Translations under genes and position numbers: made by a program
Notes under the pieces: generated by a model
Seen by the model: only the letters and a program-made list of their open reading frames with translations
Told to the model about the DNA's origin: nothing
The model's database searches: none
Shown here: positions 34,101 through 60,059 of the stretch, piece after piece
How positions within the stretch are numbered: the stretch's first letter is position 1
Layout of the letters: the number at the start of each line of letters is the position of its first letter
DNA from: Craspedostauros australis
Taxonomy: Eukaryota > Bacillariophyta > Bacillariophyceae > Mastogloiales > Achnanthaceae
Assembly (NCBI GenBank): GCA_026770025.1
Contig: JAMXDE010000029.1
Coordinates: forward strand, 124,001-188,000
Direction of reading: 5' to 3'
DNA: 64,000 nt

Positions 34101-37100
34101 GTCAAGAATCCATCCAAGGAGATCAGCGCGGTGAACCTGCACCGAATGCTCGGCCACGCGCCACTCGAGACCATGAAGCGAACGGCCGCTCAATATGGAT
34201 GGAAGATTATCGGCGAGATGCCGGTATGTCGCGACTGCGCGATCGCGAACGCAAGAGTGAAGAATATTCCGAAGGCAACCATTCCGAGAGCAACTCGCCG
34301 TGGCGAACGGCTCTTCATTGACATTAGTTACACTAAACACATAAGCTTCGGAGATAAACGCTACTGGACCCTGATCGTGGACGACTGCACGGATCACTGC
34401 TGGAGTTTCTTTCTCAAGAACAAAAGTGATCAACCAGGATACATCAAACGATTCGTCCAGACGATCAAGTCACAGACTGGTGACCAACAGATCATCTTCC
34501 GAGGTGACAACAGCGGAGAGAACAAATCCACGGAGGATATTCTCATCGATGCAGGACTCAACGTGAAATTCGAATACACGGCATCGAACACGCCGCAACA
34601 GAATGGCAGAGTAGAACGCAAGTTCGCGTACCTCTACACCAAAGTCCGCTCCATGCTCAACGGAGCACAGCTTGACGAAGAGTATAGGCATGGCCTGTGG
34701 GCAGCGGCTGCTAGCACTGCTACCGCCATCGCCAACATCACCGTAGCGAAGAACCAGAAGGAGTCACCACATCGACAATTCTTTGGCAACGATCCACCAT
34801 ATGCGGATGCACTCCGCACGTTTGGAGAAGTGGGTGTTGTGAAGACTACCTACGGCGGGATTACCGCCAAGCTCAAGAATAGAGGAGAAGAGATGGTGTT
34901 CATCGGATATGCACACCAACATGCATCAGGGGTCTACAACATGTACAGACCATCGACCAAGTCACTCATCTGTTCACGAGACATCAAGTGGCTCAACCAA
35001 TCATACGGACAGTTCCGTGGCTGGGCACCAGCACCAATCATATCCAATGAAACAGGAACGACGGACGCAGACGGCTTCACAACCATCGGACGGAAGGGAG
35101 CAACGCCAAGGACGGCAACGCGTCAAACATCGGAAGCAAAGAGAGTATCTTTCGCTGATAGCAACAGATACTACATCCTATCAGACAGCGATGATGAGGA
35201 TAATGAGGACGACGGAGTAGTGACTCAACTAATCCGAAATAACGAGGAGGATCGGAGCGAATCCAATCATGAGGATGATGAGATCCTACCATCCGGCGAC
35301 GAAGCCGATGATGACACAGGCGTCACCCCTCCGAACACACCAGCGAGGTCTACACATGACACACCATCCAGATCTCCACCAAGCAAACCAAGCAAGCGTG
35401 ACATAGCTAGAAAGGAGAGGATCCGACGTCACGAAGCACGAGGCAAGAAGGGAGAAGCTAATCCCAAGTCAACTGCAGGGAAGAGTATTCCCAGAGCTCT
35501 GCGCGAGCTCGCAGACTTCAACGAACGAGGTCGAAAGGAAGAAGGCTATGAGAGCGATTCATCATCCAATGAGGCGAGTGACGAACTCAGCGACGAGATG
35601 ATCGACGACTCTAACAACGAAACTACAGATGATGAGGAAATCGAAGACGAAGATGAAGAGATCGAGATCACTCACCATAGCACAACTGGACTATACGGGA
35701 TGAATGCAATCATCACCGAGAGACCAGCGATCGACATCGGATTGTCGATGCAGGACGAGAACAAGGAACCAGAGAAGCACATCGAACCTACAACGTTCGA
35801 CGGAGCCTTCAATCACCCAGATCCTATCCATCGAAAGGGATATCGAGCAGCCATCAAGAAGGAGTTCGACTCCATGGATACACGCAAGGTGTATAGCAAG
35901 ATCAAACGAGACGCCATCCCACGCGGCCGCAGATGCTGCAAGTGCAAATGGGTCTTCAAGCTGAAGCGTGACGGCACACATCGAGCACGGCTCGTTGCAT
36001 GTGGCTATTCACAAGTCGCAGGAGTAGACTTCCAAGAGCATTACTCACCCGTCATCCATGACGTGACCTATCGGGTCATGATGGTGATCATGCTAATCAA
36101 GAAGATGGACTGCGCACTCGTCGATGTCGTAACGGCATTCCTACATGGAGACCTCGACGAGGAGATCTATATGAACTGTCCCAACGGGATGGATCATCAA
36201 CCAGACGAAGCCCTGACCCTACACAAGCCAATCTACGGGCTTGTGCAGAGCGCCAGGCAGTGGTTCAAGATGTTGGTATCGACCCTCAAGAATATCAACT
36301 TCGAACAGAGCGCAGCAGACCCGTGCCTGTTCTACAGGAAGACGAACGAAGGAAGCATGATCGTGGCCATCTACGTGGACGATTGCTTCTGTTGCGGAGA
36401 TTCCAAGGCACTGGAAACCTTCCTGAAGGATATCCAAGGCAGCAAGTTCAAGGTGACAATCGAGCGTGGACTCGGAGACTACCTCAGCTGCAACATTGAA
36501 CTGAACCATGACAAGACTAGAGCGACATTGCGTCAACCACATCTCATCCAACACCTCATCGAAGAGTTCGGAACCAAGGTTGAGAAGATGCAACGCTATG
36601 GGACACCGGGAACCCCGGGTCAAATCATCGTACGACCATCCGAAGATAACGGACTGCAGAAGGTCGGACCGGAAGAACATGCCGAATACCGCCGAGGCGT
36701 CGGTATGCTACTCTTCCTCATCAAGCACTCGCGACCAGATATCGCGAACCCTGTGAGGGAACTCTCCAAGGCATTGATCGGGCCCACCAAGGCCGCAATG
36801 AAGGAGATGTATCGGATCATCAAGTATGTGATAGATACAAAGGACTATGGATTGAAGATCCATCCAGCGCGTCCAGACGACGACGGCTGGGACATGGAGC
36901 TCTTCTGCGATAGCGAATATGCAGGAGACAAGAACACAAGAATCAGCGTAGGGGGATTCATCCTATACCTGTGCAAGGTGCCAATCCTTTGGCGATCCAA
37001 GGCACAGAAGGTCGTCACACTCAGCTCATCCGAAGCAGAATACGTTGCCCTTTCCGAAGCGGCAAAGGAAATCTTCTTCGTCGTACAGCTACTCGAAAGT

Positions 37101-37370
37101 GTGGGCGTCCCAGTGAAGACACCGATCAAGGTCCGTGTGGACAACATCGGAGCGATCTTCATCGCCAAGAACCCATCAACATCCCAACGATCGCGGCACA
37201 TCGACGTGCGCCATCACTACGTGAGGAACATGGTAATCAACAAAACCATCGAAATCATTTTTGTCAAATCCGAGCAGAACACAAGCGACGGATTCACCAA
37301 GAACATCAAGGCCGACTTACAACGTGAACACGAGAAGTCGTACCTTGACATATCGAGAACATTCGAATGA
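31134..37370 (+). CDS. Copia Gag-Pol polyprotein of A1
   Basis: One frame of 2,078 codons. Parts in order: Gag, with two CCHC zinc knuckles (near residues 387 and 432); a very acidic stretch (about 530-840); aspartic protease (near 857); integrase zinc finger (near 1,000) and DDE core (about 1,055-1,170); a Ser/Asp/Glu-rich linker (about 1,330-1,530); reverse transcriptase with YVDD (near 1,747); and RNase H (about 1,920-2,050). Copia polyproteins are usually nearer 1,300-1,500 residues; the excess lies in the two acidic/linker regions. It would make the particle, cleave itself, copy the RNA and integrate the DNA. Confidence 0.95.
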   Translation: MSEEEELKDILLSNPTIKREEGASETPSRQEKEAAAATVLSSADASAIDETEEERSARLHRKEKSILKAIKQEETGVTKSIRTAKQGGKSETPPGGEFVTKTISAQQQAKIEESVTQKPTEIKGASAPTTKQRTNMATSANMNKRRIKAPMFSGEQEDYSAWESQAKAYARAQKTRDVMLGKTKVPTVSEIAAATDEDKEAMEEIYELGCDCFSDLILMMDAEKGKGKQAIQYINQCISDDYPEGDAHGAWNVLAEKFRPSDAVTKIKLKRQFNNEKMKRDTDPDIYITQLESLRSRLHDVKYEISDEEMIMQILSTVSVEYKTHIVNFQHQLTFNPELVTINTIRGVLRTAYATHRGGKAYVDDFQDSNTKSNDTGFTSTGNFKGTCHNCGVYGHRSADCPERKKSNNKKNNNNNNKMNGKRNKGNGFKGKCNYCGIFGHREAECRKKKFNEKKKADEQANTATQGHDKSGHEMVLSAKDMPLCMLVSDNYIEDSFFDNFACVGSDDEVQDDEIIPEWLSEEPIIHEVDPRREVSYECCFNAHDLIGSYGDEAEMDEANDSDIEEAMSDDDDDADEDGADEDDEANRDELPPPQAGRYERTGTFINQGETRRAAAPPPPAAGNNRSGIFDEDDSDETEDHPDDNFNPNERVVYPANIDFPDIEDPNSVDYLLRHSTIPNATATALIIQKQLIFDAVMEAGMRMFPGTTRGALMPIWVNMMGSILSEHFESIEEILANAIIINRILEGNDSETIPETDLHYILGGCMRVLLRERSRVHPYDPATGSHRNSTIPLDYTQLPDDMDDGDHHPPYNEDGVHEDDDDGSFNDEIAAAAVEQLHELSTKYKDKVNKDTWLADSGALCHIVNSDAALFNVRHIKSFVQVGDSTKLDSPKMGSIRLKVKQRNNTGHVIRLDDVKYTPKMAVNLFSTNKALYNGYQLGNNGILMDIINGSGTKIVFDRVFPTSNGFITGVQMHPIMPTDDDKACTAIVKNPSKEISAVNLHRMLGHAPLETMKRTAAQYGWKIIGEMPVCRDCAIANARVKNIPKATIPRATRRGERLFIDISYTKHISFGDKRYWTLIVDDCTDHCWSFFLKNKSDQPGYIKRFVQTIKSQTGDQQIIFRGDNSGENKSTEDILIDAGLNVKFEYTASNTPQQNGRVERKFAYLYTKVRSMLNGAQLDEEYRHGLWAAAASTATAIANITVAKNQKESPHRQFFGNDPPYADALRTFGEVGVVKTTYGGITAKLKNRGEEMVFIGYAHQHASGVYNMYRPSTKSLICSRDIKWLNQSYGQFRGWAPAPIISNETGTTDADGFTTIGRKGATPRTATRQTSEAKRVSFADSNRYYILSDSDDEDNEDDGVVTQLIRNNEEDRSESNHEDDEILPSGDEADDDTGVTPPNTPARSTHDTPSRSPPSKPSKRDIARKERIRRHEARGKKGEANPKSTAGKSIPRALRELADFNERGRKEEGYESDSSSNEASDELSDEMIDDSNNETTDDEEIEDEDEEIEITHHSTTGLYGMNAIITERPAIDIGLSMQDENKEPEKHIEPTTFDGAFNHPDPIHRKGYRAAIKKEFDSMDTRKVYSKIKRDAIPRGRRCCKCKWVFKLKRDGTHRARLVACGYSQVAGVDFQEHYSPVIHDVTYRVMMVIMLIKKMDCALVDVVTAFLHGDLDEEIYMNCPNGMDHQPDEALTLHKPIYGLVQSARQWFKMLVSTLKNINFEQSAADPCLFYRKTNEGSMIVAIYVDDCFCCGDSKALETFLKDIQGSKFKVTIERGLGDYLSCNIELNHDKTRATLRQPHLIQHLIEEFGTKVEKMQRYGTPGTPGQIIVRPSEDNGLQKVGPEEHAEYRRGVGMLLFLIKHSRPDIANPVRELSKALIGPTKAAMKEMYRIIKYVIDTKDYGLKIHPARPDDDGWDMELFCDSEYAGDKNTRISVGGFILYLCKVPILWRSKAQKVVTLSSSEAEYVALSEAAKEIFFVVQLLESVGVPVKTPIKVRVDNIGAIFIAKNPSTSQRSRHIDVRHHYVRNMVINKTIEIIFVKSEQNTSDGFTKNIKADLQREHEKSYLDISRTFE

Positions 37371-39701: not shown

Positions 39702-42700
39702 TCATTCGAATGTTCTCGATGTGTCAAGGTACGACTTCTCGTGTTCACGTTGCAAGTCGGCCTTGATGTTCTTGGTGAATCCGTCGCTTGTGTTCTGCTC
39801 GGATTTGACGAAAATGATTTCGATGGTTTTGTTGATTACCATGTTCCTCACGTAGTGATGGCGCACGTCGATGTGCCGTGATCGTTGGGATGTTGATGGG
39901 TTCTTGGCGATGAAGATCGCTCCGATGTTGTCCACACGGACCTTGATCGGTGTCTTCACTGGGACGCCCACACTTTCGAGTAGCTGCATGACGAAGAAGA
40001 TCTCCTTTGCTGCTTCGGAAAGGGCAACGTATTCTGCTTCGGATGAGCTGAGTGTGACGACCTTCTGTGCCTTGGATCGCCAAAGGATTGGTACCTTGCA
40101 CAGGTATAGGATGAACCCTCCTACGCTGATTCTCGTGTTCTTGTCTCCTGCATATTCGCTATCGCAGAAGAGCTCCATGTCCCAGCCGTCGTCGTCTGGA
40201 CGCGCTGGATGGATCTTTAATCCATAGTCCTTTGTATCGATCACATACTTGATGATCCGATACATCTCCTTCATTGCAGCCTTGGTGGGCCCGATCAATG
40301 CCTTGGAGAGTTCCCTCACAGGGTTCGCGATATCCGGTCGCGAGTGCTTGATGAGGAAGAGTAGCATACCGACGCCTCGGCGGTATTCGGCATGTTCTTC
40401 CGGTCCGACCTTCTGTAGTCCATTATCTTCGGATGGTCGTACGATGATTTGACCCGGGGTTCCCGGTGTCCCATAGCGTTGCATCTTCTCAACCTTGGTT
40501 CCAAACTCTTCGATGAGGTGTCGGATGAGATGTGGTTGACGCAATGTCGCTCTAGTTTTGTCATGGTTCAGTTCGATGTTGCAGCTGAGGTAGTCTCCGA
40601 GTCCGCGCTCGATTGTCACCTTGAACTTGCTGCCTTGGATGTCCTTCAGGAATTTCTCCAGTGCCTTGGAGTCTCTGCAACAGAAGCAATCGTCCACGTA
40701 GATGGCCACGATCATGCTTCCTTCGTTCGTCTTTCTGTAGAACAGGCACGGGTCTGCTGCGCTCTGTTCAAAGTTGATATTCTTGAGGGTCGATACCAAC
40801 ATCTTGAACCATTGCCTGGCGCTCTGCACAAGTCCGTAGATTGGCTTGTGTAGGGTCAGGGCTTCGTCTGGTTGATGATCCATCCCGTTGGGACAGTTCA
40901 TATAGATCTCCTCGTCGAGGTCTCCATGTAGGAATGCCGTTACAACATCGACGAGTGCGCAGTCCATCTTCTTGATCAGCATGATCACCATCATGACCCG
41001 ATAGGTCACGTCATGGATGACGGGTGAATAGTGCTCTTGGAAGTCCACTCCTGCGATTTGTGAATAGCCACATGCGACGAGTCGCGCTCGATGTGTGCCA
41101 TCACGCTTCAGCTTAAAGACCCATTTGCATTTGCAGCATCTGCGGCTGCGTGGGATGGCATCTCGTTTGATCTTGCTGTACACCTTGCGTGTGTCCATGG
41201 AGTCGAACTCCTTCTTGATGGCTGCTCGATATCCCTTCCGATGGATAGGATCTGGGTGATTGAAGGCTCCATCGAATGTTGTAGGTTCGATGTGCTTCTC
41301 TGGTTCCTTGTTCTCGTCCTGCATCGACAATCCGATGTCGATCGCTGGTCTCTCGGTGATGATTGCATTCATCCCGTATAGTCCAGTTGTGCTATGGTGA
41401 GTGATCTCGATCTCTTCATCTTCGTCTTCGATTTCTTCGTCATCTGTAGTTTCGTTGTTGGAATCGTCGATCATCTCGTCGCTGAGTTCGTCACTCGCCT
41501 CATTGGATGATGGATCGCTCTCATAGCCTTCTTCCTTTCGACCTCGTTCGTTGAAGTCTGCGAGCTCACGCAGAGCTCTGGGAATACTCTTCCCTGCAGT
41601 TGACTTGGGATTAGTTTCTCCCTTCCTGCCTCGTGATTCGTGACGTCGGATCCTCTCCTTTCTAGCTATGTCACGCTTGCTTGGTTTGCTCGGTGGAGGT
41701 CTGGATGGTGTGTCATGTATAGACCTCGCTGGTGTGTTCGGAGGGGTGACACCTGTCTCATCATCGGCTTCGTCGCCGGAAGGTAGGATTTCGTCATCCT
41801 CATGATTGGATTCGCTCCGATCCTCCTCGTTATTTCGGATTAGTTGAGTCACTACTCCGTCGTCCTCATTATCCTCATCATCGCTGTCTGATAGGATGTA
41901 GTATCTGTTGCTGTCAGCGAAAGATACTCTCTTTGCTTCCGATGTTTGACGCGTTGCCGTCCTTGGCGTTGCTCCCTTCCGTCCGATGGTTGTGAAGCCG
42001 TCTGCGTCCGTTGTTCCTGTTTCGTTGGATATGTTCGGTGCTGGTGCCCAGCCACGGAACTGTCCGTATGATTGGTTGAGCCACTTGATGTCCCGTGAAC
42101 AGATGAGTGACTTGGTCGATGGTCTGTACATGTTGTAGACCCCTGATGCGTGTTGGTGTGCATATCCGATGAACACCATCTCTTCTCCTCTGTTCTTGAG
42201 TTTGGCGGTGATCCCGCCGTAGGTAGTCTTCACAACACCCACTTCTCCAAACGTGCGGAGTGCATCCGCATATGGTGGATCGTTGCCGAAGAATTGTCGA
42301 TGTGGTGACTCCTTCTGGTTCTTCGCTACGGTGATGTTGGCGATGGCGGTGGCAGTGCTAGCAGCTGCTGCCCACAGGCCATGCCTATACTCTTCGTCGA
42401 GTTGTGCTCCGTTGAGCATGGAGCGGATCTTGGTGTAGAGGTACGCGAACTTGCGTTCCACTCTGCCGTTCTGTTGCGGCGTGTTCGATGCCGTGTATTC
42501 GAATTTCACGTTGAGTCCTGCATCGATGAGAGTATCCTGTGTGGACTTGTTCTCTCCGCTGTTGTCACCTTGGAAGATGATCTGTTGGTCACCAGTCTGT
42601 GACTTGATCGTTTGAACGAATCGTTTGATGTATCCTGGTTGATCACTTTTGTTCTTGAGAAAGAAACTCCAGCAGTGATCCGTGCAGTCGTCCACGATCA

Positions 42701-45700
42701 GGGTCCAGTAGCGTTTATCTCCGAAGCTTATGTGTTTAGTGTAACTAATGTCAATGAAGAGCCGTTCGCCATGGCGAGTTGCTCTCGGAATGGTTGCCTT
42801 CGGAATATTCTTCATTCTTGCATTCGCGACCGCGCAGTCGCGACATACCGGCATCTCGCCGATAATCTTCCATCCATACTGAGCGGCCGTCCGCTTCATG
42901 GTCTCGAGTGACGCGTGGCCGAGCATTCGGTGCAGGTTCACCGCGCTGATCTCCTTGGATGGATTCTTGACAATAGCTGTGTAAGCCTTGTCGTCGTCTG
43001 TCGGCGTGATGGGATGCATCTGCGCTCCCGTGATGAATCCGTTGGATGTGGGGAAGACTCGATCGAACACGATCTTCGTTCCGGATCCGTTGATGATGTC
43101 CATCAGAATGCCGTTGTTACCAAGCTGGTAACCGTTGTACAGAGCCTTGTTCGTGGAGAAAAGGTTCACCGCCATCTTGGGTGTGTACTTCACATCATCG
43201 AGCCGGATGATGTGGCCAGTGTTGTCTCGCTGTTTGACTTTCAAGCGAATGGATCCCATCTTGGGAGAGTCTAGCTTTGTGCTGTCTCCCACTTGGACGA
43301 AGGACTTGATGTGCCGCACGTTGAAGAGAGCGGCGTCCGAGTTGACGATGTGACACGAAGCTCCGCTGTCGGCGAGCCAGGTGTCCTTGTTGACCTTGTC
43401 CTTGTACTTGGTGCTCAGCTCGTGGAGTTGTTCCACGGCTGCCGCAGCTATCTCGTCGTTGAAGCTGCCGTCGTCGTCGTCTTCGTGGACTCCATCTTCG
43501 TTGTATGGATGATGATGGTCTCCGTCATCCATGTCGTCGGGTAGTTGCGCGTAGTCCGATGGAATTGTGTTGCTTTGATGTGATCCTGTGGCTGGATCGT
43601 ATGGGTGGACGCGTGATCGCTCGCGTAAGAGCACGCGCATGCATCCTCCAAGGATGTAATGCAGATCCGTCTCTGGGATCGTTTCTGAGTTGTTCGCTTC
43701 CAGTATGTGGTTAATGATGATCGCATTGACAAGGATCTCTTCGATTGATTTGAAGTGCTCGGATAGGATGGATCCCATCATGTTCACCCATATTGGCATG
43801 AGTGCTCCTCGTGTGGTTCCTGGGAACACTCGCATCCCCGCTTCCATTACGGCGTCAAAGATGAGCTGCTTTTGGATTATCAATGCTGTTGCTGTTGCAT
43901 TCGGGATGGTGCTGTGATGGAGGAGGTAGTCGACGCTGTTGGGATCCTCAATAGGTGGGAAGTCGATGTTCCCTGGGTAGACGACACGCTCGTTTGGATT
44001 GAAGCTGTCGTCTGGATGATTGCCGTCCTCGGATTCGTCGCTGTCATCCTCGTCGAAGATGCCCGATCTGTTGTTCCCCGCCGCTGGAGGAGGCGGCGCC
44101 GCGCTGCGGTTCGTTTCGCCTTGGCTTCGATTAATGAAGGTCCCCGTTCTCTCGTATCTCCCAGCTTGAGGAGGAGGCAACACGTCGCGGTTCACCTCGT
44201 CGTCTTCATCTGCGCCGTCCTCGTTGGCGTCGTCGTCGTCATCGCTCATGGCCTCTTCGATGTCACTATCGTTGGCCTCGTTGTCCATCTCAGCTTCGTC
44301 GCCGTATGAACCGATCAGGTCGTGCGCGTTGAAGCAGCATTCATAGCTCACTTCGCGTCTTGGATCCACCTCGTAGATGATTGGCTCCTCATTGAGCCAC
44401 TCCGGGACGATCTCATCGTCCTGCACTTCGTCGTCACTTCCGACGCACTCGAAGTTATCGAAGAAGGAGTCTTCGATGTAGTCGTCGGACACCAACATGC
44501 AGAGCGGTATGTCTTTCGCTGAGAGTACCATCTCGTGCCCGCTCTTGTCGTGTCCTTCCGTAGCCGCGTTGGCTTGTTCGTTGTTCTTCTTGCTCTCGTT
44601 GAACTTCTTCTTTCGGCACTCCGCCTCGCGATGTCCGAAGATGCCGCAGTAGTTGCACTTGCCCTTGAAGCCGCTTCCTTTGTTGCGCTTTCCATTCATC
44701 TTGTTGTTGTTGTTGTTGTTTTTCTTGTTGTTCGATTTCTTGCGTTCTGGGCAATCGGCGGATCTATGGCCATACACGCCACAGTTGTGACAAGTACCCT
44801 TGAAGTTACCGGTGCTTGTGAAGCCGGTGTCGTTGCTCTTCGTGTTGCTGTCTTGGAAGTCGTCGACGTATGCTTTGCCTCCTCTGTGCGTGGCGTATGC
44901 AGTGCGGAGTACTCCTCTGATCGTGTTGATGGTAACCAGTTCCGGATTGAACGTGAGTTGGTGTTGGAAGTTCACGATGTGAGTTCTGTACTTGTTGCTC
45001 ACCGTGCTGAGGATTTGCATGATGATTTCCTCGTCCGAGATCTTGTACTTGACATCGTGGAGACGCGATCGTAGACTCTCGAGTTGCGTGATGTAGATGT
45101 CGGGGTCCGTGTCTCTCTTCATCTTTTCGTTGTTGAATTGGCGCTTGAGTTTGATCTTCGTCACCGCATCGGATGGTCGGAACTTCTCCGCGAGAACGTT
45201 CCACGCTCCGTGTGCGTCTCCTTCGGGGTAGTCGTCGGAGATGCATTGGTTGATGTACTGGATGGCCTGCTTACCTTTTCCTTTCTCTGCATCCATCATG
45301 AGGATCAGATCGCTGAAGCAGTCGCATCCCAATTCGTAGATCTCCTCCATCGCTTCCTTGGCTTCGCCGGCGGCTGCCGCAATCTCACTCACTGTTGGCA
45401 CCTTGGTCTTGCCCAACATCACGTCTCTCGTCTTCTGTGCACGAGCGTATGCCTTCGCTTGGGACTCCCATGTGCTGTAGTCTTCCTGTTCACCACTGAA
45501 CATCGGCGCCTTGATGCGTCGCTTGTTCATGTTGGCTGATGTCGCCATGTTGATTCGTTGTTTCGTTGTTGGTGCGCTCGCGCCCTTGATTTCCGTCTGT
45601 TTCTGTGTTGTCGATTCTTCGATTTTCGCTTGTTGTTTCGCGAGGGTTGATTTGCTCACAAATTCTCCTCCTGGTGGTGTCTCACTTTTCCCACCCTGTT

Positions 45701-45953
45701 TGGCTGTGCGAATGCTCTTCGTCACACCAGTCTCCTCTTGCTTGATCGCCTTGAGGATCCTCTCCTTCTCGCGATGTTGCCTTGCAGACCGTTCTTCTTC
45801 GGTCTTGTCGATCGCGCTTGCGTCTGCGCCTGATAGGACAGTAACCGCGGCTGCTTCCTTCTCTTGTCGTGGTGGAGTCTCACTCGCACCTTCTTCTATC
45901 TTGATAGTCGGGTTGGACAGAGGGATGTCTCTCAATTCCTCTTCCTTGCTCAT
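39702..45953 (-). CDS. Copia Gag-Pol polyprotein of A2
   Basis: One frame of 2,083 codons, colinear with that of A1 and very similar throughout: two zinc knuckles, acidic stretch, protease, integrase, linker, RT with YVDD, RNase H. Differences cluster in the acidic stretch between Gag and protease, where small in-frame length changes occur. The retention of a full-length frame in two separate insertions shows that the unusually long polyprotein is normal for this family. Confidence 0.95.
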   Translation of the reverse strand: MSKEEELRDIPLSNPTIKIEEGASETPPRQEKEAAAVTVLSGADASAIDKTEEERSARQHREKERILKAIKQEETGVTKSIRTAKQGGKSETPPGGEFVSKSTLAKQQAKIEESTTQKQTEIKGASAPTTKQRINMATSANMNKRRIKAPMFSGEQEDYSTWESQAKAYARAQKTRDVMLGKTKVPTVSEIAAAAGEAKEAMEEIYELGCDCFSDLILMMDAEKGKGKQAIQYINQCISDDYPEGDAHGAWNVLAEKFRPSDAVTKIKLKRQFNNEKMKRDTDPDIYITQLESLRSRLHDVKYKISDEEIIMQILSTVSNKYRTHIVNFQHQLTFNPELVTINTIRGVLRTAYATHRGGKAYVDDFQDSNTKSNDTGFTSTGNFKGTCHNCGVYGHRSADCPERKKSNNKKNNNNNNKMNGKRNKGSGFKGKCNYCGIFGHREAECRKKKFNESKKNNEQANAATEGHDKSGHEMVLSAKDIPLCMLVSDDYIEDSFFDNFECVGSDDEVQDDEIVPEWLNEEPIIYEVDPRREVSYECCFNAHDLIGSYGDEAEMDNEANDSDIEEAMSDDDDDANEDGADEDDEVNRDVLPPPQAGRYERTGTFINRSQGETNRSAAPPPPAAGNNRSGIFDEDDSDESEDGNHPDDSFNPNERVVYPGNIDFPPIEDPNSVDYLLHHSTIPNATATALIIQKQLIFDAVMEAGMRVFPGTTRGALMPIWVNMMGSILSEHFKSIEEILVNAIIINHILEANNSETIPETDLHYILGGCMRVLLRERSRVHPYDPATGSHQSNTIPSDYAQLPDDMDDGDHHHPYNEDGVHEDDDDGSFNDEIAAAAVEQLHELSTKYKDKVNKDTWLADSGASCHIVNSDAALFNVRHIKSFVQVGDSTKLDSPKMGSIRLKVKQRDNTGHIIRLDDVKYTPKMAVNLFSTNKALYNGYQLGNNGILMDIINGSGTKIVFDRVFPTSNGFITGAQMHPITPTDDDKAYTAIVKNPSKEISAVNLHRMLGHASLETMKRTAAQYGWKIIGEMPVCRDCAVANARMKNIPKATIPRATRHGERLFIDISYTKHISFGDKRYWTLIVDDCTDHCWSFFLKNKSDQPGYIKRFVQTIKSQTGDQQIIFQGDNSGENKSTQDTLIDAGLNVKFEYTASNTPQQNGRVERKFAYLYTKIRSMLNGAQLDEEYRHGLWAAAASTATAIANITVAKNQKESPHRQFFGNDPPYADALRTFGEVGVVKTTYGGITAKLKNRGEEMVFIGYAHQHASGVYNMYRPSTKSLICSRDIKWLNQSYGQFRGWAPAPNISNETGTTDADGFTTIGRKGATPRTATRQTSEAKRVSFADSNRYYILSDSDDEDNEDDGVVTQLIRNNEEDRSESNHEDDEILPSGDEADDETGVTPPNTPARSIHDTPSRPPPSKPSKRDIARKERIRRHESRGRKGETNPKSTAGKSIPRALRELADFNERGRKEEGYESDPSSNEASDELSDEMIDDSNNETTDDEEIEDEDEEIEITHHSTTGLYGMNAIITERPAIDIGLSMQDENKEPEKHIEPTTFDGAFNHPDPIHRKGYRAAIKKEFDSMDTRKVYSKIKRDAIPRSRRCCKCKWVFKLKRDGTHRARLVACGYSQIAGVDFQEHYSPVIHDVTYRVMMVIMLIKKMDCALVDVVTAFLHGDLDEEIYMNCPNGMDHQPDEALTLHKPIYGLVQSARQWFKMLVSTLKNINFEQSAADPCLFYRKTNEGSMIVAIYVDDCFCCRDSKALEKFLKDIQGSKFKVTIERGLGDYLSCNIELNHDKTRATLRQPHLIRHLIEEFGTKVEKMQRYGTPGTPGQIIVRPSEDNGLQKVGPEEHAEYRRGVGMLLFLIKHSRPDIANPVRELSKALIGPTKAAMKEMYRIIKYVIDTKDYGLKIHPARPDDDGWDMELFCDSEYAGDKNTRISVGGFILYLCKVPILWRSKAQKVVTLSSSEAEYVALSEAAKEIFFVMQLLESVGVPVKTPIKVRVDNIGAIFIAKNPSTSQRSRHIDVRHHYVRNMVINKTIEIIFVKSEQNTSDGFTKNIKADLQREHEKSYLDTSRTFE

Positions 45954-46035: not shown

Positions 46036-46825
46036 TGTTGGCAAGTTCCGCTCACGGTAACCTACGATCGTGGAAGATGGTGTTGGTTGATAGTCGTCTG
46101 TTTGCTATTTCATTAGTTGGCTACTCCGATCCTCTCGGTGTACGCCGTTCTCTTGCCCAATGCTCTCGGTGCTTCAATCTGTTTTGTAGATTCAGTCTCC
46201 GACTATGAGTCGGTACGCAAGATCCTCTCTCGCTCCTCTCTGTATTCTCTCTCTCTCTCTCAACATCGTGTGCTCATGCTACACGATACTCCGTGTTCGA
46301 TGCGTGCTCCGCATTCGACACTCCGTTCATTCAGTACTGGCTTCTACTCCATGAGTACTTACCATTTGAAGTTCACCTTCAGTATCCATGATCTTCATGG
46401 GTCATTGTATCTTCGCCTCCTGCTCTGACTTGGAGACAGCTGTCAACGTGGTGACATGATGACATCCTGTCGACGTCAGTAGGCGTCCTTCTGCTCTCCA
46501 GATGTCATGTTCCATTGGTGATGCTGCAGTCTGTCAGATGATATCATCATCTGAGGTTTAGTTGGGAAGTACCTCGAGATTCTCTTGGTACCATTGATGC
46601 ATGGACGGACGATCTTCTGATTCTCCCAGAAATCGTTATTTGCAAATTTCCTCCAGAAATCTTGCCCCTTTTCGTGTGTTCCATTTCCCCTGTAATTCTG
46701 ACGAATCACAGTATACTATCGACACGAATGTAGTTATACCGTCCAAGTGCGTATGAGAGAATAGCGGGTGAACGATGCACATATACACGTACATCTTGAC
46801 GTATACTCACATGTACATCTCGACA
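46036..46825 (-). repeat. 5' LTR of A2
   Basis: 790-bp partner of 38892-39681. Followed, on the minus strand, by the same leader as A1 (GTTTATAAACGATAGATC). Confidence 0.92.
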
Positions 46826-48857
46826 ACCTCGACGAGGAGATCTACATGCAATGCCCGAAAGGCATGAAGCATGAAACCGACGAATGTCTGCTGCTCAAGA
46901 AAACCATCTACGGACTCGTGCAGAGTGCAAGACAATGGAATAAGAAGCTCGTCGACATCCTATTCAAACTAGGGTTCAGACAGAGCGAGGTGGACCCATG
47001 CCTGCTGATTCGGAATCAGGAAGGGCAACTGCTTTTAATCGGCACCTATGTGGACGATTGCCTCTGCATAGGAGAGGAGCAGGAGTTGAAAAAGCTCGTG
47101 AAGGATATCCAAGCGGAACGGTTCGGTGTCAAGGTGGAGGAAGATCTTGAAGACTACCTGAGTTGCAAGATCATCTTCAACCACGACAAGACGAACTGTT
47201 GGGTAAACCAACCACACATCCTAAAGAACATCATCGATACGTTCGGAAGCGATGTGGTGAAGCTGCAACGATACGGAACGCCTGGGACACCAGGGCAAGG
47301 CATCCAAAGGCAAAGTGACGCACCCAAAGTGGACAAGCAGCGACACAGCAGATACCGAAGCGGAGTAGGCATGCTACTATACCTGGTGAAACACTCTCGA
47401 CCCGACATCGCCAATGCAGTGCGAGAACTGACCAAGGTGTTGGATGGACCAACGGCCGCAGCATACAAGGAAATGCTTCGAGTCATGAAGTTCGTATGGG
47501 ACACGAGAGAGTATGGACTGAAGATGAAACCAAGTCCACTGACCCAAGATGCATGGAAGATTGCAATATTCACCGACAGCGAATTCGCGGGTGATAAGGA
47601 CAACCGCATCAGCGTAGGAGGGCACATCGTCCTACTACAAGGAGTGCCGATCATATGGAGATCAAAGGCACAACGCAGCGTAACACTCAGCTCAACAGAA
47701 GCAGAATACGTCGCACTGTCAGAAGCAGGGAAAGAAATCCGCTTCGTGACGCAACTGATGAGCGACATCGGATTAAAGATGCACAAGCCCGCGGACGTTA
47801 TGGTCGATAACGTCGGAGCGATCTTCATCGCCTCCAACCCATCGACATCCGCAAGAACAAGGCACATCGACATCCGACATCACTTCATACGTGAACTCGT
47901 CAAAAATGGAGAAGCCATAACCAAATTCGTGCGATCGGAAGACAACATCGCAGACGGCTTCACAAAGAACACCAAAAAGGAGATCTACGACAACCACAAG
48001 AATCACTTCATCCAACTGCGGTCTGCAATGGATTAATGGGAGTAAGGCGAAAGGTGAGAGAGAAGGACGGTGATGATGGATGTTATGTTGTCGATGCGAC
48101 AATGGAAGGGTGTTAGGAATTGAGGGTACGACTTTGCCGGAATACCCGTAATTGCCGCACCTCCCAACATTGTTCGTCACAGCTTTGAATATTATTCATC
48201 ACATGTTCGGAGACTATTTGTCACACCTTTGCATACCATGTCATTATGACTATGACTAAGCATACGGACGCGATTGATACCTGTATAACCGCGAGGAGGA
48301 TAGCCTGTCCTCTGGTAACGTAAGGAAGACACCCACGGCGGATCAGGAGGTCCCGATACCACGCCAACCATGGCAACCATCCAGACGACGACGTCGATCA
48401 GAACAGCATGTCCATGGGCAAGTGACGCACCTTCTTCAGAGGACAGCACATGCCTCTCCTGCGGACAAGAACATCCGCAGGTTTGGAACATCAGAAAGGA
48501 TCAGAATATCCACAGGTTTGGAACATCACCAAAGGTGACATCGATCATGAGACGACGGCGTCATGAGATCAACGATGGAAAACATGAGATAGACAAGCGC
48601 TCAGGACTGCAGATCCCTACCATGCAAGCGTAGACAGCTACGACAATGCAGAGACAAGGAAGCAAGAACAGAGCATGATGAACGAAGAGGGAAGCACCTA
48701 AGAGACAACAGGATGCCCTGTGTCGTTACCGCGACAGATGCCTGTCAAGAAAACGAAATCGGAAGAGAAAGTGAGATTGTGCTCACAGTTCTAAAACGGT
48801 ACAGTTTCTAACAGCAGATTAGAATTTAGTACTAACTATAACCCCGGATTTCCAACA
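46826..48857 (+). mobile_element. Remnant of Copia element C (RT/RNase H and 3' LTR)
   Basis: Starts abruptly at the A2 boundary in the middle of a reverse transcriptase region, runs through the catalytic region (near 47047) and RNase H to a stop at 48036, then a purine tract (GGAAGGG) and a probable LTR. Related to A1/A2 but clearly a different family; by eye a little over half of residues match. The 5' part is missing from this window, so the element is incomplete. Confidence 0.82.
48111..48857 (+). repeat. Probable 3' LTR of Copia element C
   Basis: Directly follows the purine tract. Begins TGTTAGGAAT and ends GGATTTCCAACA (TG...CA, with imperfectly inverted ends). No partner LTR lies in the window, so the boundaries rest on end motifs only. 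Confidence 0.6.
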
Positions 48858-50806: not shown

Positions 50807-52706
50807 CATAGAGGAGAGCAGTGGTATTTGGGATGGGATCTTCAATTGGACGCGTACTCCCTCGCCGCAGGTCCCATGGGGCGCGCTATAGATTCTCTAC
50901 AGAGCAACAGGCGCACTATACGGGAATCATGTATAAAAGCGACAAACGAACGAAGCATGGCTTGCATCCTCAGAACCTTCTTCAATTCCAAAATTGGTCA
51001 TGCCCAAATTGTTTTGGCCTTGCCTGTACTCGTATACTCTCGCATCACCGCCAGCGGCAATCGAGGACGGGGTGCTTTTAAGATGCTTGTTATTGTTGTT
51101 GACTGATGAAGCGGAACCTTGTGCTTGAAACATCTCCCATCGATCACCCATGGCCTGCTGTGCGGAGAAGCTTGGAGTGAATTATATCCACGACGCCCCC
51201 CGATCAACATTACGGACTGCGTTGCCTGTCTGCCACCTTGAAAAGCAGATTCTTACAAGGTTGCTGCAACCAACTGCGTTCTTCTTCCTGCAAATACCGC
51301 GCAAACACCTTGAACGACGTAGTGTTCAGCTTCGCATACCCATCAGTCTTCTCGTTGTAAGTGAGAGCATATCGATTCATGAAAGCCTCAGTGGTGTCGC
51401 GCGACCCCACCACGCGTAGCGTGCGTCCGTCCAGTCCAACGTAAGTTCCCTCCGCCGGTTCAATCGGCGTCGAGCCTTGCGAGAAGTCGCTGACGCCAGC
51501 TCGCATGGCGTAGGGACCAGTGACACGAGGCACGTTCTGTTTCAACACACTACCAACGGCAAACAGCCGTTTCAGCACTTGGTGAATGGAGTAATACATG
51601 ATCGGATGCTTGGGCGATGCTGCAACAAAGTACTGAGTGAGCTTCCTGTCACGCGCTACGACAGCGTAGGCATCATCCTCCGGTTGGATGGCACCATCTT
51701 GGAAGAACCTCTTTCCTGGAGCGGTGTCCATGTCGGAATATATCCCTCCGTATTCGTACAGCACGAGATACCTCCACAGATCAGCCTTGCCAGCACCGCT
51801 CACAACGCATTCTCGGAAGAAGTGCAGATTGGGGAATTCTGGAAAGAGCTTTCCCAGTAGCCGATCAACTGCTGCTTCATCGTGGAATGCGAAAGAGTGG
51901 CCTTCAAGGTGCCATCTTTGCATGATCCTTTCGAACGCAGGTGTCATGCATGGGAACTTTGCGGTGATGTGGACGATCCTGGGGATCTTGCGTGGGGGGA
52001 GCGTTGCGTTGAGTGTGTCAGTTGCAGAAGTTGGATCGATGAAGGTGCTGTTGATGAAGGTCGTTCCATTCGGGCACATTTCTGGCTTGAAGTTGCTGGT
52101 CATCACCAATTCTTGGAGGGGTATGTGCCGTGTTTCTCGGTTGAGATGGTCTCGAAGTTGCTTGGGCATGGACGTTGCCATTCCTTGTGGTGATGGTGGT
52201 GGTGTATCTCCTCCTCCTCCGGCTACCGCTTCTACTGGCAGTAGCGTCGATGAGCTTGAGCCTGTTTCACTCACAGACCTCTCGTCTGATTCACCCATTC
52301 GAGAATCGATCATTGTCGGGAGGACGCCATCAAAATCAGAATGGTTGGTCCGATTGGTCTCCCTCACATCTCGGATGAAGAGAATGCATAGAAGCAGAAT
52401 GATGACGATGTTCTTCCCTGCCAGGAACGACGACGACGACGACGACAGCGGCGTTGACGGCGATCGTGATGATGATCGCGCCATCTTGCCCTTCTTTGAT
52501 GTGTTGGAAATACGATGACTCTGTGCGCTGTTGTATTCACCGCCGTCAAGGCAACATCCACATTGGAGATTGCTGTGCGAGTGCTCGCACGAAATCTGTG
52601 GATTGGAGAGCTTGATGACTTGTGCGTTGGCCAAGTCCTCCAACCCCCCTCCAAAGGTCTCCGTCACAGCGCCGGCGCTTCGTTGTGGAATTTCCGCTCT
52701 TGTTGG
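50807..52706. repeat. Segmental duplication, copy 2
   Basis: Partner of 5992-7795, about 45 kb away in the same orientation. Has about 100 bp (about 52531-52630) absent from copy 1, bounded by a short direct repeat (GATGACTCTGTGCGCTG and GATGACTTGTGCGTTGG). Confidence 0.9.
51210..52484 (-). CDS. DXD glycosyltransferase (Gly_transf_sug/OCH1-like), copy 2
   Basis: 424 residues from the ATG at 52484; the open frame extends 149 codons upstream to 52931, but only the MARSSS start is shared with copy 1. Nearly identical to copy 1: membrane anchor near residues 20-37, acidic/Ser-rich stem, KADLWRYLVLYEYGG and DMD motif. Differences are a two-Ser insertion before the anchor, changes just after it (RETNRTNHSDF against READRAIRSDF), and scattered substitutions. 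All catalytic-looking motifs are kept, so both copies may be active. Predicted Golgi type II enzyme; substrate unknown. Confidence 0.88.
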   Translation of the reverse strand: MARSSSRSPSTPLSSSSSSFLAGKNIVIILLLCILFIRDVRETNRTNHSDFDGVLPTMIDSRMGESDERSVSETGSSSSTLLPVEAVAGGGGDTPPPSPQGMATSMPKQLRDHLNRETRHIPLQELVMTSNFKPEMCPNGTTFINSTFIDPTSATDTLNATLPPRKIPRIVHITAKFPCMTPAFERIMQRWHLEGHSFAFHDEAAVDRLLGKLFPEFPNLHFFRECVVSGAGKADLWRYLVLYEYGGIYSDMDTAPGKRFFQDGAIQPEDDAYAVVARDRKLTQYFVAASPKHPIMYYSIHQVLKRLFAVGSVLKQNVPRVTGPYAMRAGVSDFSQGSTPIEPAEGTYVGLDGRTLRVVGSRDTTEAFMNRYALTYNEKTDGYAKLNTTSFKVFARYLQEEERSWLQQPCKNLLFKVADRQRSP

Positions 52707-53092
52707 CGTCATCGTTTTGACACTCGCGGTCGAATTGGTCAGACGCAATATCTCATTCAGTCGTGTTTTCACACTCATGTCACGACTGCACGAGGGTGGC
52801 TGCGCCACCACACAGACTTCGCTTCTGTGCTGTCCAAGCCTTTTGGTGTTGAAGACCTTCGCGTGACACCAGAGCTCTTTGGTGTTCGATGGAACATGAT
52901 CACTCCTTGCACCTCCATGATGACATCTCACATCATGTCACCCATGTGCAGCGCCTGAGTAAGAATTAGATGCAAGAGAGTCAGAGTTGAGAGCCACGAA
53001 CACCAACAGGAAAGGGAGCGCGAGGAGAGGAGGAACGGACCAACCATTCAGCAAGGCAACTCATTCGGAAGGAAAGCATCGATTCGACCATC
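52485..53092. other. Divergent upstream region, glycosyltransferase copy 2 / MFS gene
   Basis: About 600 bp between two divergent starts. The open frame on the minus strand is probably leader sequence, not protein. No specific promoter element identified. Confidence 0.45.
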
Positions 53093-55166: not shown

Positions 55167-56471
55167 TCAGTGCAGCGGACTTCGTTGGTTTTTGGCGATC
55201 TCGTGCAGCATTACCCTGCAGGACCGCAGCAGCCAATTTGGCTCGTTTTTCGGCACGTGCCTCGTAGGCGCATGAAAGGATGCAACCCCAAGCTCTGCAG
55301 AATCTCGAGCCCTGTCGGCCTGGCCAGGCGAATTGCGCTCGATGAAGCTCTCCGTGGTGCTCTGATTCCCCACCACGCGCATTGTGCGGTTATTGACGCC
55401 CACATGAAGTCCTGCTGTCAATGGAGACAGATCCCCACGTTGCACAAACGACATGGCACCAAGTTGCATGGCCTTCTGGCCAGTGATACTACGTCCGTTC
55501 TGGTGTATCACTGACCTAACCTCGTACAACTGCGCCAATGCTACATGGAGAGAGAAGAACATGATCGGATGGCGCGGCGAGGTTGCGATGAAGTACGGGG
55601 CAAGACACCCTTCCTCTGCCACAACACCATAAGCGTCATCTTGTGGCTGGATGGCACCATCTCCCAAGAAGCTTTCTCCTGGAGCAACGTCCACATCGGC
55701 ATGTATCCCACCGTACTCGTAGAGCACGAGATATTTCCATAGATCGGCCTTCCTGGCACCCTTTGCAAGACATTCTTGGAGAGACTGCAGGCTTGGGAAT
55801 TCTGGGCAGAACTTGCCCAACAATCGATCCACTGCCACTTCATCATGAAATGCGAAGGAGTGGCCTTCAAGGTGCCATCTCTGCATGAACTTGTCCAATG
55901 ACGGCCTCATACATGGTATCCTTGCGGTGATATGGACGATTCTCGGGATCTTGCGTGGTGGAAGCGTTGCGTTCGGCTCGCCCGTTGCAGAAGTTGGATT
56001 AATGAAGGTGCTGTTGATGAAGGTCGTTCCCTCCGGACACATTTCTGCTTTGAAGTTACTGGTCATGACGAGCTCTTGGAGAGGTATGTGGCCAGTTTCT
56101 CGGTTCAAGTGGTCCCTTTGTCGTTGTTGGAAGAAGGGAGCTGCCGTCTCCTGCAGTGGTGGCGGTGATGGCATATCTCCCGCTGCTGCCTTCACCCCAT
56201 TCGTATCCAGCGCACGAGTAGAGATCCGCGATGATTCATCCACGTGAGCATCAGCAGCATCCGCGAATGTACCATTGGAAGCAGGGGTGTCAATCCGATT
56301 CGTATCTCTCGCTTCTCTTGCGAAGATGACGTACAGCAGCAGAATGATGATGATGTTCTTCCTTGACAGAAACGACGGCAATGACAGCATCAGTGCCTGC
56401 ATCAGTCTGCTGTTCTCTCTCGTACTTGCATCGTCATCGTCCATTGTCGTCCTCGTGTTCACTCCTGACAT
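55167..56471 (-). CDS. DXD glycosyltransferase paralogue 3
   Basis: 434 residues, clearly homologous to copies 1 and 2 but diverged. Type II membrane layout: Asp/Ser-rich cytosolic tail, anchor about 38-50 (KNIIIILLLYVIF), variable stem, catalytic domain. The core keeps DHLNRETGHIPLQELVMTSN, RKIPRIVHIT and KADLWKYLVLYEYGG, and the metal motif is DVD (about 259-261) in place of DMD. Its position next to copy 2 suggests an older local duplication, before the recent copying of copy 2 to the SEC31 side or the reverse. Substrate unknown. Confidence 0.87.
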   Translation of the reverse strand: MSGVNTRTTMDDDDASTRENSRLMQALMLSLPSFLSRKNIIIILLLYVIFAREARDTNRIDTPASNGTFADAADAHVDESSRISTRALDTNGVKAAAGDMPSPPPLQETAAPFFQQRQRDHLNRETGHIPLQELVMTSNFKAEMCPEGTTFINSTFINPTSATGEPNATLPPRKIPRIVHITARIPCMRPSLDKFMQRWHLEGHSFAFHDEVAVDRLLGKFCPEFPSLQSLQECLAKGARKADLWKYLVLYEYGGIHADVDVAPGESFLGDGAIQPQDDAYGVVAEEGCLAPYFIATSPRHPIMFFSLHVALAQLYEVRSVIHQNGRSITGQKAMQLGAMSFVQRGDLSPLTAGLHVGVNNRTMRVVGNQSTTESFIERNSPGQADRARDSAELGVASFHAPTRHVPKNEPNWLLRSCRVMLHEIAKNQRSPLH

Positions 56472-57593: not shown

Positions 57594-60059
57594 TTATCTG
57601 TCCTTCGGCATAAACCATACCAATGAGAATCGTTCCCCATCAAACCGATCCGTCCAATGCCTCAGCTTCCATCCGTCGAACTCCAATGGTTTGTACCGGA
57701 TGTCATGCTTGGTGCCTTCCACGAACAGCTCACCATCGTCGTAATCCCCCAAGCCAACGATCATGGACAGGCTCTGTCCTGCGCCGACACCGCTGTCTAC
57801 ATGCGGTGTGAACTGCGCGTTGCAGTTGACTGCGCAATGGGAGGACGGGGGCCGCGGGTCTTCGTCTTGGCTCGAGCCGGCCATTGTGAGGCGATGTCGT
57901 CTTTGATTGGAGAGGCTGCATTCCAATTGGAAAATGAGCTGTGCCAAGTCAGGGAAGATCGAGTTGGCGGTCGGGATGTACGTGAGATGTGGAAAGTCCT
58001 TGATGTTGACGACCGTAAACGATCCGTTGCGATGTGCATCGCCATTTGAGCTACTGCCTCGTGTTGCTGAGAATTCTGCCGAGATTTCCGGTGAGACTTC
58101 TACTGGTTCGTCTGCGGCTGAAGGGCTATCGCGGATGATTGTGGATCTTGCGAGCGATGTATCGGGCCATGAGCCCGTTTGGACGATGTTACGCAGTCGA
58201 GACAGAACTTGTTCGTATTCAAGTGGCGCAGGACTTTTCTTGGCTGCGAGCCGCACATTTGGCATGCTGACTCCATCCAACGCTCTCAATTGGTCTCGGA
58301 TGATCGGTATGATAGTGTCCCGCACGTCATCAATCCAATGGTCGGACTGCAGCATGCGTAGTTCTGTGCGCTGGAGCAAGCGACGCCGTGTCCAACGCTG
58401 TGCATCGATGCTATTTGACATCACATCGCCTGTGACGTTCGAATCAAATAGATGGCGGCCTTTGTTTCTCATTTCTTCAAAATGGAATCGGCAGCCGGCC
58501 ATGTATGTGAATCCTGCAGGAGCCATTGGAGTGGACACAACAAGATTGGGGCTTGTCGCCTTGTCCCAAAAATCAGTCGACAACCAGCCATGCGCCATTG
58601 CTATTGCCGTTCCGACAATTCGTTCGACCTGCTGTGGCAGGAAGTCTTCGCCATTTATCTCAAGAACGGCAACCACTGTGCCTGTATCATTGAGGGAAAT
58701 GAACTCCACGATCCTCGCTCTATCAACGGCCTTCCACACTGGGTCCGTGCTTGGGCTGATCTCACCGCAAAGCGTGGGATCGGCAAAGTTATGCCATGGG
58801 CGACGTTCTCGAAAGCTCAGTGCACCAAACCGCCGTGCCGATAGTCGACGTGAATCCGCTGCTGTCGTCGCTGCCATGTCAGGTGGGTGGCCACCGTTGC
58901 CATTCTCTTCAGGTTCGGCTGTGACGAGACCATCTGCGCAAGAAGCGATCGTGGCATTATCATCCCGCGAACCTGCCGCCAATCGCAAGGCGTCTCTGAA
59001 CTTCCGCAGTGATTCTGGCGATGCGGTGGCCTTTTTGAATTTCTGGCCGGGCAGGATCAGTTCTTCATCGTTGTTCCACCAATCCTCGATCTGCGTGCCG
59101 TTGGGCAGCCAACGCAGAGGCATGAGGTAATGGTACTTGCGTTGCGTACATGCTTGTTCCACGTTGATGTGGTCTTTCAATACTTTGAAGTTGTTGATGC
59201 TGATGGCAATCGCAGCGGTGCTATTGATGATGCCGCCAAAGATATTGAGACGTGACTGCGACGACGATAACGACGATTGTGCTTGGAGCTGCTCAGTCAT
59301 CCGATCAAACACTGCCCGCCATAACGCGGTGTTCATTGCATCGGGCGCAGTGACACTCACGACGAGCACATCCGCACTTGCAGAGTACGTCTGATCCTGT
59401 GACAGGACTCGATGCCGAAGTCTGGCAACGCTGGATTGCGTGCTGCTGACGAACTTGATCTCACGTTGGCAGTCCTCCACAGTGGCATTGAAGTGCGACT
59501 GGGTGAAGTTTTGCAGCGTTGCGACTAACAGCGATTGGATCGATGCTGTTGCTTGCTGCGCGATCGACACAGCTGATGATGTGACCGTTGCGTTGGTTGG
59601 AACGTACCCAAATTCAAATGCAAGGGAATGCTTGACGTAGTTCAGGTCGCCCATGGAAGAGAGAGCGGAGCATTTGAAGTCTGATCGAATGTGCCGGAAC
59701 ATCGCGTTGCGGCTACCAAACGATGAACCGCAGTACTTGCAGACATGGGCTGGACGGCCCGGGTCGACGCTGACGCTCTTGGCTTGGGCCGGTGATGCGA
59801 TCTGTCCGACGGCATCCTCCGCAGGCACGGTTGCGGATCTCAACGGGGTGTCATGGGAGGTGAAAGTCCGGCGGGTGCAAGCCCGATGGGTATGCGATTG
59901 TAGATATCTTATCCAATCTGTTGGTAATGCCGCCACCCTGTTGTTGCAATTGCTGTTGGATGGACGAAAGGCTTCATGCGGAACACAGAACAGGACGCAG
60001 CAAATGAATGCCCAAGCCACGGTGTCTCGAATCCTCCGTCGCCGCACGTGCGCCATCAT
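57594..60059 (-). CDS. Zinc finger - TruA-type pseudouridine synthase - 2OG-Fe(II) oxygenase fusion
   Basis: 821 residues, no introns. Residues 13-30 are hydrophobic (VAWAFICCVLFCVPHEA), then Phe-31, like a signal peptide with the Ala-Phe step of secondary-plastid targeting. A C2H2/C2HC-like finger lies at 107-130 (CKYC...HIRSDFKC). About 138-530 resembles TruA/PUS1: ADVLVVSV, CTQRKYHYLMP (about 304-314), RPWHNFAD (420-427), GEDFLPQQVERIVGTA (470-485). The usual catalytic Asp motif (R-T-D-x-G) is not evident; the likely place reads SSTQSSVARLR (about 205-215). About 686-821 is an oxygenase domain with HVD (753-755), distal His-801 and Arg-810 of GERFSLVWF, so its iron and 2-oxoglutarate residues look intact. 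Substrates of either domain are unknown. Confidence 0.8.
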   Translation of the reverse strand: MMAHVRRRRIRDTVAWAFICCVLFCVPHEAFRPSNSNCNNRVAALPTDWIRYLQSHTHRACTRRTFTSHDTPLRSATVPAEDAVGQIASPAQAKSVSVDPGRPAHVCKYCGSSFGSRNAMFRHIRSDFKCSALSSMGDLNYVKHSLAFEFGYVPTNATVTSSAVSIAQQATASIQSLLVATLQNFTQSHFNATVEDCQREIKFVSSTQSSVARLRHRVLSQDQTYSASADVLVVSVTAPDAMNTALWRAVFDRMTEQLQAQSSLSSSQSRLNIFGGIINSTAAIAISINNFKVLKDHINVEQACTQRKYHYLMPLRWLPNGTQIEDWWNNDEELILPGQKFKKATASPESLRKFRDALRLAAGSRDDNATIASCADGLVTAEPEENGNGGHPPDMAATTAADSRRLSARRFGALSFRERRPWHNFADPTLCGEISPSTDPVWKAVDRARIVEFISLNDTGTVVAVLEINGEDFLPQQVERIVGTAIAMAHGWLSTDFWDKATSPNLVVSTPMAPAGFTYMAGCRFHFEEMRNKGRHLFDSNVTGDVMSNSIDAQRWTRRRLLQRTELRMLQSDHWIDDVRDTIIPIIRDQLRALDGVSMPNVRLAAKKSPAPLEYEQVLSRLRNIVQTGSWPDTSLARSTIIRDSPSAADEPVEVSPEISAEFSATRGSSSNGDAHRNGSFTVVNIKDFPHLTYIPTANSIFPDLAQLIFQLECSLSNQRRHRLTMAGSSQDEDPRPPSSHCAVNCNAQFTPHVDSGVGAGQSLSMIVGLGDYDDGELFVEGTKHDIRYKPLEFDGWKLRHWTDRFDGERFSLVWFMPKDR

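Follow-up and report, generated by a model that had tools for sequence, protein, structure and literature searches.

A single gene in the window (the whole 64,000-nucleotide stretch of DNA analyzed here) encodes a protein that joins a zinc finger, a TruA/PUS1-like region and a probable 2-oxoglutarate/iron (2OG-Fe(II)) oxygenase in one chain. We consider, with a probability of roughly 0.45, that this protein is an RNA-directed oxygenase, and that it acts in the plastid, a second copy encoded on contig C72 acting in the cytosol or nucleus. In this reading little would be left of the pseudouridine-forming site in the TruA/PUS1-like fold, which would have been kept as a dock for structured RNA, for example tRNA. 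The C2HC finger would add a nucleic-acid contact, and the C-terminal oxygenase would hydroxylate or demethylate a nearby base.

The protein (P0001) is encoded by one open frame of 821 amino acids on the minus strand (57594..60059, stop codon included), as indicated by the frame list, by codon usage and by the existence of a paralog; all features of the protein given below lie on the same strand. A sequence-only reading of this DNA had reported an uninterrupted 821-residue frame here, which is correct, and the strand is the minus strand; the first frame of the plus strand in the same interval has many stops. An antisense frame of 407 amino acids also exists (57907-59130). At the composition of the window the chance of 821 stop-free codons is 4e-17, therefore a frame of this length is not expected by chance. 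Codon usage was scored with a model built from six host genes in the window, copia-type polyprotein frames being left out. This frame scores 0.162 bit per codon and none of the remaining five frames exceeds 0.081, which is a modest margin; the poorest fit is seen in the first 135 residues (0.023 bit per codon). Upstream, in head-to-head orientation, lies a deoxyhypusine synthase gene, and downstream are a sugar-transferase-like gene, an Atg22-like transporter gene and a second sugar-transferase-like gene. As expected for a eukaryote, these neighbors give no hint of function.

The window as a whole contains three Gly_transf_sug (DXD) genes, all on the minus strand (6410-7762, 51210-52931 and 55167-56471). 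It also contains two inverted copia-type retrotransposon polyproteins that are 95% identical (31134-37370 on the plus strand and 39702-45953 on the minus strand), and a partial reverse transcriptase (46768-48036, plus strand) adjoins this pair.

A protein search of the organism's own genome (74.8 Mb in 90 contigs) found one other gene of the same kind, a 948-codon frame at C72:26647-29490 that probably starts at an ATG 34 codons into the frame. BLAST aligns the two copies strongly only over the oxygenase (E 6.2e-35); the stretches aligned over the finger and the TruA C-terminal subdomain (E 0.05 and 0.14) fall within the same paralog frame and in the same order. Identity between the copies is 31% in the finger, 21% in the N-terminal TruA part (residues 136-300 of the window copy), 27% in the TruA C-terminal subdomain and 62% in the oxygenase core. 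The order of finger, TruA-like region and oxygenase is thus repeated in one diverged, full-length paralog, and because two diverged genes have the same order, chance read-through or a gene-joining artefact is unlikely. This supports the earlier claim of a fusion in one protein and argues against two separate genes. The search of the genome also returned a weak match to the paralog at C8:324840-325085 (E 0.86).

The finger spans residues 104-131 (59667..59750) and was located by Pfam and by alignment to the paralog. Its four ligands have the spacing C107-x2-C110-x12-H123-x6-C130, and all of them are paired in the paralog in the full-length alignment. Since three cysteines and one histidine are common to both copies, the Cys/His finger proposed from the letters alone can be assigned to the C2HC type. 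Pfam C2H2 models fall below cut-off for the finger of either copy, the best value being E 0.0023 for the window copy.

The middle region of the protein is homologous to TruA/PUS1, judging from sequence comparisons that give weak support for single sequences and better support for a profile of the two copies. As single sequences, the two copies match PF01416 at E 0.092 and 0.023, and TIGR00071 at E 3.4e-4 and 0.0067 when whole proteins are used; with the TruA-like region alone the latter values become 5.1e-5 (window copy) and 0.003 (paralog). All of these single-sequence scores are under the curated cut-offs (in the window copy, 13.7 bits against 23.3 for PF01416, and 20.4 bits for the whole protein or 23.1 bits for the region against 142.85 for TIGR00071). 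A two-copy profile of the C-terminal subdomain (residues 401-545; 58425..58859, delimited by profile matches) has eight PDB matches, and the five that rank first (E 6.7e-4 to 0.0071) are all TruA/PUS1 chains. PUS1 entries, largely redundant, make up four of these five, and the sixth match is unrelated (E 0.085). The region was also compared by hhalign with TruA-type enzymes of the same genome. Six of the eight loci fetched were used, and three of them entered the joint alignment. The whole region matched at P 5e-5 (probability 67%), and its C-terminal subdomain at P 2e-5 (76%).

We also scanned both copies with motifs built from segments hand-picked in six TruA-type enzymes of the same genome (five of the six for motif III, one being dropped because of its length). 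Motif II is found at residues 299-315 (..QRKYHYLMPL; 59115..59165), where Y309 is taken as the catalytic Tyr, with a score of 18.2 in the window copy (shuffled maxima 4.6 +/- 2.6) and 12.5 in the paralog (shuffled maxima 5.2); these scores were matched by 0 and 4 of 200 shuffles, respectively. Motif III is found at residues 466-492 (LEINGEDFLPQQVERIVG...; 58584..58664), its register being taken from profile alignments, and scores 30.0 in the window copy and 27.0 in the paralog, with shuffled maxima of -0.9 in both (+/- 3.2 in the window copy) and no match in 200 shuffles of either. The N-terminal part of the region (residues 140-320; 59100..59642) is placed by position and motif II only, and in the window copy no profile extends over this half of the fold. 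INTS5_C has a lower E-value than PF01416 in the middle region of the window copy (E 0.0091 and 0.029, both under cut-off), and this match is absent from the paralog. The identities INTS5_C, N-HEAT_ATR, PHROG and TonB were rejected; their matches are weak and none is common to both copies. With the TruA/PUS1 family (TIGR00071, PF01416) the protein shares the C-terminal subdomain and the context and order of motifs II and III. It differs from that family in having neither motif I nor the motif III Arg, in its long extra stretches and in its fusion to a finger and an oxygenase. The TruA/PUS1-like region of the sequence-only reading therefore stands as a matter of homology, at scores short of family thresholds.

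The C-terminal domain (residues 611-821; 57597..58229) is probably an oxygenase, judging from its motif and its conservation in the paralog. By motif, both copies carry the HxD...H iron triad and the 2OG-binding Arg: the predicted iron ligands are H753 and D755 (57795..57803) together with the distal H801 (57657..57659), and the predicted 2-oxoglutarate-binding residue is R810 (57630..57632). The distal His is followed by this Arg at a distance of 9 residues, which we take to be the spacing in PHD2 and FTO. The paralog also has a GLGxYxGGEL stretch, GLGDYDDGEL in the window copy, that resembles 2OG-Fe(II) oxygenases. The C-terminus is the best-conserved part between the copies (57% identical). 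Constraint on the protein is strongest in the oxygenase, whose core is 62% identical while identity elsewhere was measured at 19-35%; over residues 740-819 pN is 0.235 against a pS of 0.79, silent sites being saturated.

The C-terminus of the window copy has no Pfam match at E 5, the domain has no PDB profile match at E 10, and AlphaFold models were too poor to use, also for judging a double-stranded beta-helix fold (pLDDT 28 for the full-length protein and 36 for the oxygenase only). The nearest 2OG-Fe(II) oxygenases are those of the TET/JBP type (PF12851), which have the HxD, distal His and Arg seen in both copies, but the Tet_JBP match is not significant and was obtained with a fragment of the paralog only (E 0.22; 11.2 bits against a cut-off of 34.9). 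In a comparison with 19 2OG oxygenases of the same genome (20 of 27 genome matches were fetched and one locus was dropped for a stop), the strand with HxD comes into register, as does the GEL stretch after it, at P 0.054 and probability 1%, which is not significant; a reversed control did less well and aligned 13 columns elsewhere at P 0.21. Since no oxygenase profile is significant, the identity of the domain rests on motif, order and conservation; in the earlier proposal of a C-terminal oxygenase, what holds is the complete HxD/H/R set, kept in the paralog. A Tet_JBP scan of the genome listed neither the window copy nor the paralog, and its sole weak match (C8:1163593-1163760, E 0.28) is a different oxygenase-like frame and was set aside. 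ALKBH1 and ALKBH8 are oxygenases acting on tRNA, and tRNA base oxidation is a role that the present protein may share with them; no AlkB-family profile is found among the Pfam matches of either copy.

Residues 1-34 of the window copy (59958..60059) form a putative bipartite plastid presequence, as suggested by hydropathy and by likeness to light-harvesting N-termini. A basic stretch is followed by a hydrophobic core, with the hydropathy peak beginning at residue 13, and then by ...PHEA-FRPS. The same genome contains 28 light-harvesting protein matches at E <= 1e-30. Among ten of these loci that we fetched, six carry an AAAFAP- or HAFSC-like motif close to the start of their longest frame, and the other four N-termini are not resolved by reading that frame. 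The six include three near-identical copies and a further two with one common presequence. An N-terminal motif of this type directs plastid import in stramenopiles. The N-terminus of the paralog, unlike that of the window copy, is basic and non-hydrophobic, and the two isoforms are likely to reside in different compartments.

TruA-type loci of this genome are also found at C63:125829-126128, C63:135155-135397, C63:260678-260920, C63:269951-270250, C51:6280-6513 and C51:15597-15830. Their scores are nearly equal, as though one diverged TruA-type family had been copied repeatedly. One of them (L007) has kept RTDAGV, and its start, with ACFQPS, resembles a presequence; plastid TruA-like genes may thus have multiplied. 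The genome also contains 88 matches to the silicon-transporter profile (PF03842), 28 of which are free of stops and cover almost all of the profile; others have one or two TGA/TAG codons or are fragments. With its silicon transporters and light-harvesting proteins the organism would be a photosynthetic alga that uses silica, probably a diatom or something closely related. Diatoms have a handful of silicon transporters, and the number of matches here is far above that.

Whether the TruA-like region still makes pseudouridine depends on its catalytic residues. The active site of human PUS1 is reported to be lined by D146, Y201, H292 and R295 (PMC3983220), and D134 of yeast PUS1 is reported to be essential (PMC10631681). 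We infer that R295 and H292 are residues of the HQIR stretch and that Y201 is the first Tyr of motif II. H292 and R295 correspond to Q476 and E479 in the window copy and to Gly and Cys in the paralog; this pairing at the motif III Arg position is found in 27 of 28 alignments. Motif I (GRTDxGVxA) is unrecognizable, with best scores of 5.5 in the window copy and 6.3 in the paralog against shuffled maxima of 7.6 and 7.4 (sd 3.3); the scores of genuine TruA-type enzymes from this genome are 33-49. The pseudouridine-forming site therefore most likely no longer works, as far as the sequence can tell. Of the two ideas in the sequence-only reading, that of a two-step RNA modification is weakened by a motif I at shuffle level and by replacement of the motif III Arg in both copies. 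The other, in which the TruA fold serves only for RNA binding, is the better fit, although a candidate Asp remains. The D146A variant of PUS1 is reported to have no activity and still to bind RNA at ~10-fold lower affinity (PMC3983220), so RNA docking does not require a working TruA site.

The candidate Asp is D222, within a QDQ (residues 221-223; 59391..59399) that may be a remnant of motif I, and together with a Tyr that occupies the motif II position of the paralog in 9 of 28 alignments it makes some weak or altered pseudouridine activity possible. A bifunctional protein, in which an atypical but active TruA-type synthase would use the Asp of QDQ and the oxygenase would modify the same RNA, is in our view quite unlikely. 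The QDQ of one copy is paired with that of the other in the full-length alignment and in 15 of 28 alignments, but the pairing is lost in the other 13; a joint alignment with the real enzymes sets D222 at their catalytic Asp but does not place the QDQ of the paralog there. As motif I, the QDQ window is the best one in the paralog (6.3), where, as in RTD, the Asp is preceded by an Arg at a distance of two residues, and is only the fourth-ranked one in the window copy (2.2), neither being above shuffles. Similarly, Y309 and its motif II context are intact in the window copy, but the best motif II window of the paralog has Asn in place of Tyr (12.5, against 3.3 for an alternative window with Tyr), and Asn occupies the position in 15 of 28 alignments. 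The lost motif III Arg also speaks against such a protein, as does the fact that the genome already has TruA-type enzymes with intact RTDxGV.

The oxygenase half can be read differently as well. It might act on DNA or protein, as TET/JBP- or prolyl-hydroxylase-type enzymes do, the TruA-like fold and the finger making generic nucleic-acid or protein contacts. Tet_JBP is the only oxygenase profile to appear, a zinc finger can bind DNA, and the basic N-terminus of the paralog is possibly nuclear. We nevertheless find this reading doubtful, since the profile match falls short of significance and the window copy lacks it, since those TruA relatives whose function is known have RNA as their substrate, and since the putative plastid presequence suits RNA better than nuclear chromatin. 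Alternatively, the domain may be inactive or no 2OG oxygenase at all, with HxD...H...R arising by coincidence in a conserved domain of unknown fold. The failure of profile searches, the P of 0.054 against the organism's own 2OG oxygenases, the poor oxygenase-only model and the DDGEL of the window copy where the paralog has SGGEL are in line with this, but conservation of all four residues and most of their surroundings in the paralog, and a register of the HxD strand and GEL with real 2OG oxygenases that the reversed control does not reproduce, make it improbable. An RNA-directed oxygenase with a TruA-derived dock remains our preferred reading.

We found no relative of the protein in viral contigs (protein and alignment scans, motif patterns), in prokaryote genome contigs (alignment scan, motif patterns) or in 50,697 phage records searched by tblastn with the C-terminus of the paralog and with the whole paralog; the viral and prokaryote scans rest on short exact peptide or DNA patterns, and the phage search does not. 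Four pattern loci (L028-L031) were rejected as relatives and look like chance matches, because the matched frame has stops nearby and the BLAST alignment there is confined to 12-13 motif residues. A literature search covering titles and abstract openings, with most subscription journals outside its range, yielded no report that we recognized of this fusion, and its novelty is provisional.

Oxygenases need something that chooses their substrate. If the preferred reading is true, a TruA fold that has lost its own site and is kept beside an oxygenase would clearly illustrate how an RNA-modifying enzyme can be reused as a guide, and would point to oxidized RNA bases in algal plastids. More speculatively, and as a rather unlikely extension, a family of algae that use silica may have turned a retired pseudouridine synthase into the part that brings a TET-like oxygenase to tRNA or rRNA. 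One isoform would be in the plastid and one outside it, and in these RNAs a hydroxylated or formylated pyrimidine that has not been described would be made.
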